Source of the DNA: Planctomycetota bacterium
GTDB lineage: Bacteria; Planctomycetota; Planctomycetia; Gemmatales; Gemmataceae
NCBI GenBank assembly: GCA_021807595.1
Contig: JAKBCS010000033.1
Coordinates: forward strand, 1-41,564
Reading direction: 5' to 3'
Length of the DNA stretch: 41,564 nt
A model generated the notes under the pieces. It was not told the origin of the DNA. It saw only the letters and a program-made list of their open reading frames with translations, and made no database searches. Shown here in pieces: positions 3,947 to 5,782 of the stretch. Position 1 is the first letter of the stretch; every line of letters begins with the position of its first letter. The translations under genes and the position numbers were made by a program.

Positions 3947-4375
3947 GTGGACCGAAAGACTTTGCAGAACCTTGCCAAAACGAGGATAAAGGATGCAAAA
4001 GCTCTCTTGGGGAGAAGAAGATGGTCGGCCGCATATTATCTCTGCGGTTACGCGATCGAATGCGCCCTCAAGTCGTGCCTGCTTCGTCACCTGGGAGAAT
4101 CCGCGGCGGTTTTTGGCGATCAAAGCTATTTGAAGAGGTTGACCGAATGCTGGACGCACGATCTGGTCAAATTGGTTAGTCTGGCGGGATTGGATGCGGA
4201 GTTCGGAATCGCTCGTTCCGCCAATACATCGCTCAATAATTTCTGGAATGTGGCGAAGGGTTGGGAAGAGACTTCCCGCTACGAGGAACATAACGAGGTG
4301 ACGGCGCGGGCTTTGTATGAAGCCGTCACTCATAATCCAGACGGGGTGCTACGATGGATACAATCGCGTTGGTAG
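3947..4375 (+). CDS. HEPN domain protein
   Basis: This is a 142-aa all-helical HEPN protein. The signature is helix 2, SAAYYLCGYAIECALKSCL (about residues 27-45), followed by a conserved THDLVKL element (70-76). Many HEPN proteins are RNases using an R-x(4-6)-H motif; here Arg64 and His71 are spaced R-x6-H (RLTECWTH), so an active site is possible but not certain. The GTG at 3947 has GGAG six bases before it; an upstream in-frame GTG at 3896 would add 17 residues unlike the family. The last 22 bases overlap the start of the next gene, so the two are likely translated together. HEPN genes are often paired with an MNT nucleotidyltransferase antitoxin; here the partner is an unrelated unknown protein. 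Confidence 0.82.
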   Translation: MDRKTLQNLAKTRIKDAKALLGRRRWSAAYYLCGYAIECALKSCLLRHLGESAAVFGDQSYLKRLTECWTHDLVKLVSLAGLDAEFGIARSANTSLNNFWNVAKGWEETSRYEEHNEVTARALYEAVTHNPDGVLRWIQSRW

Positions 4376-5052
4376 AAAATCGAATTGAGGAAGGCCAGCA
4401 CCTGCTCGATCTTCTTGAAGAAGATAGGATCTCCGTCCGCGCCGCTTGTTGGGTAAAGCGGACCGACTTAGACCGATGGATATTCTACATAGCAACTCCC
4501 ATTTGGGACGAAAAGGGGCCATTGGAAGCGTATCGTAAAATCACCCCCGCCTTGCGAACCTTGGGAAACGATTGGCTCACCGGTTCCGATGTCACCCTGG
4601 TTGGGGAGAAACACCCGCTCGTGAACGATACGCGGGAGTTTCTTCGACGCTTTCCCCATCGGACCCCCATACAATCTCCTCTTTCGCTCATCGGAGGAAT
4701 CCCCGTAGAAGAAATCTACGTCTATACCTTGGGAAAAGTGAAGGTACCGATTTACGGTTTATACTTTCGAGACCACCCAGGCGGAGGCTTGACGTTATCG
4801 TTTGAACCGTATTCCCCCGACAGCAAACTCGTCGAAGAGAAAGATGGAAAGCGCAAGGAATATCGAGCAGAAACCGGCATGGACTGGATCGTGGCCGCAC
4901 CTGAAAGTTCGACTCTGGAACGAGATGAATACGGAAAAATGGTACTCGCATGGAATCTCAACGGCAGGCGAGTGAGATCCAGCCCCAACGAAATTTGGAG
5001 CCTTGCCAACCTCGGCCGGCAGGGCTTTCGATTTGTTTCTCAACCCGCCTAG
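4354..5052 (+). CDS. Unknown protein paired with HEPN gene (232 aa)
   Basis: I do not recognise a named domain. It is a 232-aa soluble protein without signal peptide or membrane segment. The N-terminus (MDTIALVENRIEEGQHLLDL) is an amphipathic helix; the middle is beta-rich with many aromatic residues (LDRWIFYIATPIWDEKG, VEEIYVYTLG); the C-terminal half is charged and hydrophilic. It lacks the GSxxxGxxxxDxD nucleotidyltransferase motif expected of the MNT antitoxins that usually accompany HEPN. The ATG at 4354 lies inside the HEPN gene (22-base overlap), so synthesis of the two is probably coupled. By position it could be the antitoxin or the target-recognition partner of the HEPN protein; this is inference only. 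A short CCCGC/GCGGG hairpin (5044-5058) overlaps the stop codon and may end the unit. Confidence 0.75.
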   Translation: MDTIALVENRIEEGQHLLDLLEEDRISVRAACWVKRTDLDRWIFYIATPIWDEKGPLEAYRKITPALRTLGNDWLTGSDVTLVGEKHPLVNDTREFLRRFPHRTPIQSPLSLIGGIPVEEIYVYTLGKVKVPIYGLYFRDHPGGGLTLSFEPYSPDSKLVEEKDGKRKEYRAETGMDWIVAAPESSTLERDEYGKMVLAWNLNGRRVRSSPNEIWSLANLGRQGFRFVSQPA

Positions 5053-5263: not shown

Positions 5264-5692
5264 ATGTCTCTGGACGATGTGAAAAAACGCTTCGTGGAAG
5301 AAGTCAAACTTCGCGCCTACGACGACAAGTACATCGACAAAGCCGAAGAACGCGAGATCCTGCAAATCGCCTTGCAGCAAGGCGTCTCCGTCGATTCCGC
5401 CCGCGCCGCACTGGCGCAAGTGTGCGAAAGCAACGGCTACGTCCTGGAGAGCCGTGTCCTCAGCGAAATCAAGGACCTCATCGATACCTTCGCCAGCAAC
5501 GACGGCAAGATCGACGAGAAAGAGTTCACCGACGCCGTCGCCCAGTGCAAAAAACGCACGCAGGGCAAGAAGAACGATGTGCAGTGCAAACGAATGGTGC
5601 TGGAAGTGATCGAAGAGAACAGCTTCAAGGTCAAGACCGGCATGTTCAGCAATTGGCACGCGAAAGTGCGCAAGGACGTTGGCTTGGCCTAA
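5264..5692 (+). CDS. Small TerB/EF-hand-like protein (142 aa)
   Basis: This is a 142-aa soluble helical protein. Two similar acidic elements occur: YDDKYIDKAEEREIL (about residues 18-32) and SNDGKIDEKEFTDAV (about 74-88). Both follow the D-x-x-x-I-D-x-x-E pattern seen in TerB-like and degenerate EF-hand helices. The second resembles an EF loop (Gly at position 6, Ile at 8, Glu at 12) but has Phe instead of Asp at position 1, so calcium binding is uncertain. The ATG at 5264 has AAGGAG seven bases upstream; a TTG at 5258 is less likely. It has its own strong promoter and is followed by a long perfect hairpin, so it is probably a single-gene unit, well expressed. Function unknown. Confidence 0.72.
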   Translation: MSLDDVKKRFVEEVKLRAYDDKYIDKAEEREILQIALQQGVSVDSARAALAQVCESNGYVLESRVLSEIKDLIDTFASNDGKIDEKEFTDAVAQCKKRTQGKKNDVQCKRMVLEVIEENSFKVKTGMFSNWHAKVRKDVGLA

Positions 5693-5703: not shown

Positions 5704-5782
5704 AATCGCGGTTAGCCGCGACGCGGAGAGGAGCGAGGGTCAGTCCCTCGCGCTCCGCTCCGCGTCGCGGCTAACCGCGATT
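5704..5782. terminator. 79-nt hairpin with 25-bp perfect arms (GGTTAGCCGCGAC family)
   Basis: Positions 5704-5728 and 5758-5782 are perfect 25-bp reverse complements, and the interior (GGAGCGAGGG with CCCTCGCGCTCC) extends the stem with a 2-nt bulge. It lies 12 bases after the stop of the preceding gene and 22 before sppA. It likely terminates or protects the upstream mRNA. The core GCGTCGCGGCTAACC recurs at 7686-7726 and, degenerate, at 12715-12761. Confidence 0.65.

Follow-up and report, generated by a model that had tools for sequence, protein, structure and literature searches.

The gene pair at the locus

Within the window, by which we mean the whole stretch of 41,564 nt analysed here from a planctomycete genome of 5.67 Mb in 282 contigs, two genes of the forward strand follow one another directly. 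The first (3947..4375) begins with GTG and encodes a 142-aa protein of the HEPN-T type (PF05168), the second (4354..5052) begins with ATG and encodes a 232-aa protein, referred to below as the partner. Lengths and coordinates could be confirmed from the sequence, including the overlap by 22 bases (4354..4375) that an earlier note on this DNA had pointed out, and the GTG start is backed by alignments of relatives. The overlap is anchored in a conserved residue of the upstream protein: the partner ATG spans the codon of Trp137 (W137), its TGG together with the preceding A forming the start codon, and this Trp is present in 94 of 95 HEPN relatives.

The lower GC content of the pair, which the same note had judged by eye, is borne out by calculation. 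The GC of the pair, 0.524, lies below the window median (0.591) and is nearly the lowest in the window, with only 0.5% of equal-sized slices reaching values as low; GC3 likewise amounts to 0.56-0.59 in the pair and 0.71-0.78 in the neighbouring genes. Promoter and terminator scans stayed near chance level and an Rfam search gave no match. Further downstream, between the gene at 5264-5692 and sppA, lies a near-perfect palindrome of 78 nt (5704-5782) with a calculated RNA fold of -75.7 kcal/mol (z -10), an interspersed repeat present at about 40 places in the genome (80 matches, most of them counted on both strands).

The HEPN protein and its putative active site

The upstream protein passes the curated Pfam cut-off of PF05168 (26.9 bits vs 22), a family matched also by 68 of 76 relatives at E <= 0.1. 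Its AlphaFold2 model (pLDDT 96) is closest to 1ufb (Z 12.9, 2.7 Å over 116 residues), followed by the HEPN-T folds 1wol (Z 12.8), sacsin (3o10; 11.9), 2hsb (11.5) and 1o3u, and HEPN folds overall match the model at Z 9-13. Judged by profile and model, the protein is a member of the HEPN-T family with the HEPN four-helix fold, which agrees with the HEPN identity given in the earlier note.

The catalytic motif proposed at the same time fared differently. The string R64-x6-H71 does exist, but the Arg of R64 (4136..4138) is shared by only 7 of 95 relatives, and we regard the string as a product of chance; shuffling the protein yields an R-x(4-6)-H in 65% of cases. R111 is followed by a His at +5 to +7, as in the canonical Rx4-6H, in just two of the 95 relatives, and RX4HXY was searched for in the HEPN and is absent. 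Conservation is found at other positions: E38 and K42 of the Ex3K motif (E38xxxK42, 4058..4072) are each present in 95/95 relatives, H71 (4157..4159) is invariant in the same 95, and R111 (4277..4279), the putative Arg of the HEPN motif, is kept in 94. Anantharaman et al. 2013 found an Ex3[KR] motif in many HEPNs and described, for AF0298-like HEPN-T proteins and AbiV, the loss of the motif His with retention of the basic residue, whereby a His further upstream may form an alternative site (PMC3710099). All residues of such an alternative site are present in the protein studied here, with H71 as the candidate catalytic His, and RNase activity is therefore plausible, given both the conserved residues and the published arrangement. 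We consider the HEPN to be probably an RNA-cutting protein; with the canonical Rx4-6H being absent, it may also be inactive.

The partner: a constant domain with exchangeable C-termini

Relatives of the partner have residues 1-125 in common, where the widely shared part ends, and the conserved N-terminal domain (residues 1-126, 4354..4731) has a predicted MNT-like fold devoid of the catalytic motif. In agreement with the earlier statement that the 232-aa protein has no known domain, searches of Pfam, NCBIfam and PADLOC returned no match and a sequence search of the PDB none of weight. The model of the whole partner (pLDDT 91.6) has as its top structural match the nucleotidyltransferase 2rff, with Z 7.5 over 96 residues at 3.4 Å, a score within the range reached by unrelated folds, Z < 8 not being decisive; the nucleotidyltransferase 1ylq follows (Z 6.5, 85 residues, 3.7 Å). 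Both alignments extend to partner residues 124-130, CCA-adding enzymes and polymerase beta stand lower in the list, and most of the other matches span about residues 1-91. Foldseek placed MNT antitoxin chains of HEPN/MNT complexes at ranks 4-6 with a non-significant E of ~0.25, and a search of a viral structure library gave no significant match. When the profile of the partner domain was compared by hhalign with those of 29 MNTs, the probability was 0.1%, no better than for reversed controls. RimP_N had been intended as a competing-fold control; being absent from 41/41 relatives, it was not used. The order of elements in the partner is helix-strand-strand-helix-strand-helix-strand, which we take to be that of an MNT minus the GS loop.

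The catalytic GSx8-14DxD (GSx10DxD) is found in none of 106 partner domains and in 29/29 control MNTs, the controls themselves having been picked by a motif similar to it, and the second strand of the partner domain carries no conserved acidic pair. The lack of the MNT motif, already noticed at this single locus, is thus borne out over the 106 domains. Unrelatedness of the partner to MNTs, on the other hand, is unproven, as its nearest folds are those of MNTs. With a predicted fold closest to minimal nucleotidyltransferases, the partner may be a degenerate, worn-out MNT; since the Z score lies in the range of unrelated folds and the profile comparison was null, we treat such an origin as suggestive only.

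The remaining 106 aa of the partner (4732..5052, forward strand), modelled mostly as strands with one helix, are shared with close relatives only. Among long partners at least 13 unrelated C-terminal types occur, whereas 53 of 79 partners do not exceed 150 aa and consist of the ~125-aa domain followed by no more than a short tail; by sequence comparison, the partner is a constant domain of this length with a swappable C-terminus. The C-terminal domains of some partners were identified as Mrr_cat (4.7e-6, in one partner of the set) and HEPN_AbiU2 (3.5e-8), and DUF3800 is annotated C-terminal to the partner domain on a Deinococcus plasmid. At a Nocardia locus (L116, 5378-6139) the C-terminal stretch can be read as a restriction endonuclease domain of the Mrr type. 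A locus of the SAR202 cluster (L093, 5402-7339) has the partner domain in frame with a PurH-like protein, which is either a fusion or an assembly error.

In view of the nuclease domains at the C-termini of some partners, the partner may itself be the effector. One could go further and regard the HEPN as a non-catalytic scaffold or regulator, onto which the N-terminal domain of the partner docks and thereby positions a C-terminal effector (Mrr nuclease, DUF3800, AbiU2 or others), a reading that would agree with the lack of a canonical HEPN motif, with the identities of the C-termini just named, and with the PADLOC candidate PDC-M28, which combines a related HEPN with ATPase-like proteins (see below). 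It is difficult to reconcile with the many short partners, which leave no effector, and with the complete or almost complete conservation of each of the four residues in the putative HEPN active site. We consider it unlikely, albeit the most serious of the alternatives.

Linkage and asymmetric decay

With the HEPN as query, 299 relatives were found in GTDB genomes, and 80 of these 299 loci were fetched. All 80 carry the partner just downstream (79 recognised by the first profile, L088 by a wider one), and of 79 genome loci, 67 show an overlap of precisely 22 nt. Most of the 80 loci belong to Planctomycetota; others come from records named Chloroflexi, SAR202, Acidobacteria, Pedobacter, Cyclobacterium, Nocardia, Nitrospirales, Desulfuromonadales, Verrucomicrobia and Hyphomonadaceae. 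The viral contigs of IMG/VR show the pair in 33/33 HEPN loci, a dozen of which are near-identical, with an overlap of exactly 22 nt in 32 of them. The earlier note had also proposed to count how often the partner adjoins HEPN genes. Used as query, the partner was detected at 47 places in 27 of the family's 95 genomes (two of four genomes in the genus); the HEPN lies just upstream in 30/30 of the first loci, its frame being broken in three, and among the remaining 17 places it is intact at 12, a remnant at four (one at a contig end) and missing at one. Some genomes hold several copies of the pair, and a Nitrospirales locus (L106, 4995-9857) contains two HEPN-partner pairs within one stretch of 5 kb. 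The distances among HEPNs and among partners correlate (r = 0.62, maximum after shuffling 0.11), as would be expected from mere linkage and shared descent of a linked unit just as from binding. The pair is hence what had been surmised from a single locus, namely a conserved unit, strict and fixed across many bacterial phyla, plasmids and prophages.

The two genes differ in how often they decay. Across 133 non-redundant loci both are intact in 115, the HEPN is partial in 11 and missing in three, so that 14 loci (one of them at a contig end) hold an intact partner beside a partial or missing HEPN; in-frame TAG or TAA codons cut four HEPN frames (L039, L069, L105, L086). Partners were flagged as partial at four of the 133 loci, though three of these partners seem to have diverged and not to be broken, and an intact HEPN devoid of a recognisable partner was seen at none. 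Part of this asymmetry is a sampling effect, because searches anchored on the partner are biased towards intact ones; if only the HEPN-anchored set is counted, the ratio of broken HEPNs to broken partners is 4 to at most 1. Such decay fits a harmful HEPN that would need its partner.

Mobility and genomic neighbourhood

The mobile module suggested in the earlier note finds its counterpart in the plasmids and prophages on which we observed the pair, and it looks mobile. Plasmids of Acinetobacter, Deinococcus and Lichenicola carry it, the first of them together with a BrnT/BrnA toxin-antitoxin pair close by, and it is also present in the record of a Klebsiella phage. Its neighbours on viral contigs (among them replication O, DnaC-like loaders, NinB, RusA, CII, antiterminator Q and Ren-like exclusion proteins) place it in the lambda-like early region of prophages. 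Two phage versions of the pair gave no match in the E. coli genomes searched. A clean empty site was not found; one candidate genome (G038) has the upstream genes followed by a different gene, another (G037) lacks the upstream gene.

Could the pair serve a housekeeping or regulatory purpose, for example as an MtlR-like RNA-binding regulator with no part in conflict? Its location is mostly chromosomal, known defence genes beside it in bacterial genomes are not common (few single matches among 77), and the toxicity of the HEPN is a property that we infer. A housekeeping function would nevertheless sit poorly with a patchy distribution, even within the family and the genus, with multiple copies per genome and the closely spaced pairs of the Nitrospirales locus, and with plasmid and prophage location and an atypical base composition; we hold it to be improbable.

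Relation to known systems

Literature searches for the HEPN-partner pair found no paper describing it. As it travels as a fixed unit through phyla, plasmids and prophages, it is probably an undescribed toxin-antitoxin-like or anti-phage unit. The obvious comparison is with HEPN/MNT of type VII (HepT/MntA), which also consists of two small, strictly linked genes; MNTs are moreover the nearest, though not decisive, matches to the predicted fold of the partner. Were the pair an ordinary toxin-antitoxin system of this type, the partner would AMPylate the HEPN. It unites a HEPN and a second gene as expected, but every partner tested lacks GSx10DxD and matches no MNT profile, the HEPN is without RX4HXY, the HEPN gene comes first in a reversal of the usual order, and the fixed 22-nt overlap and swappable partner C-termini set it further apart. 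Considering the missing motif and the reversed order, we do not file the pair under type VII, and an AMPylating partner appears very improbable. The class II HEPN/MNT systems (PF05168/PF01909) resemble it in their PF05168 HEPNs, which lack RX4HXY; their MNTs retain GSX10DXD, and the class still needs study (PMC7641770).

The HEPN also matches PDC-M28A of the PADLOC candidate system PDC-M28 (E 3.3e-10; 76/76 relatives). The other components of this system are different, however, PDC-M28B being an ATPase protein similar to ParA and PDC-M28C yet another protein, and neither could be equated with the partner, as no match was obtained in 78 partners at E <= 0.1. None of the best loci for PDC-M28B-like ATPases in the family (L153-L160) has a HEPN of the pair's kind adjoining. 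On a Nostoc plasmid (L120, 2989-6101) a PDC-M28B/C-like ATPase fusion comes after a related HEPN and begins with an N-terminal region of ~120 aa; this region aligns with the partner in the right register at a non-significant E of about 0.1, and may be a remote version of the domain conserved there.

HEPNs of the AF0298/AbiV type share with the protein the retained Arg, the lost His of Rx4-6H, the second conserved His upstream and Ex3K, and AbiV structures are among its fold matches (Z 7.5). It differs from AbiV in scoring below the curated cut-offs of PF18728 (18.3 bits vs 27.1, Pfam) and TIGR04498 (14.5 vs 27, NCBIfam), and no partner of this kind is mentioned for AbiV in the text consulted. 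Tha is likewise a prophage-borne HEPN effector of an anti-phage system; unlike the pair, it is a single protein with a canonical RX4H, and its inhibitor is the product of an antisense gene overlapping its own (PMC11087260).

Proposed function

The reading we prefer, with a probability of roughly one half, is that of a mobile two-gene module in which a HEPN RNase, acting as a toxin or in abortive infection, is restrained through binding by an MNT-like partner devoid of catalysis. This effector would be an RNase of the HEPN-T class with an alternative active site of H71 and R111 together with E38/K42. The partner would be translated from the same message, the 22-nt overlap coupling its translation to that of the HEPN. 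Its ~125-aa domain, probably a catalytically dead minimal-nucleotidyltransferase fold, would bind the HEPN and hold it inactive, while in roughly one third of the members the swappable C-terminus could contribute sensing or a further effector. Disturbance of the complex, for example by a phage, would free the HEPN RNase and growth would stop. In favour of this reading are the strict pairing, the correlated divergence, the asymmetric decay, the conserved alternative site, the match to the defence candidate PDC-M28A, the plasmid and prophage location and the MNTs among the structural neighbours of the partner; the null profile comparison, the absent canonical motif, the scarcity of known defence genes nearby and the nuclease domains of some partners speak against it. 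In a broader and somewhat less probable form, which we put forward tentatively, the pair would represent a widespread, undescribed anti-phage or toxin-antitoxin module of chromosomes, plasmids and prophages, combining an AbiV/AF0298-type HEPN RNase with control by binding only, exerted by a protein resembling a dead nucleotidyltransferase, and with interchangeable C-termini for sensing or as a second weapon.

For the questions of whether HEPNs lacking RX4H act as toxins and what controls them, the pair provides a clean, testable case, owing to a strictly linked partner without transferase residues, the natural loss of the HEPN but not of its partner, and a constant domain joined to many C-termini. 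Being compact, the short versions carried by phages lend themselves to direct tests in the laboratory.
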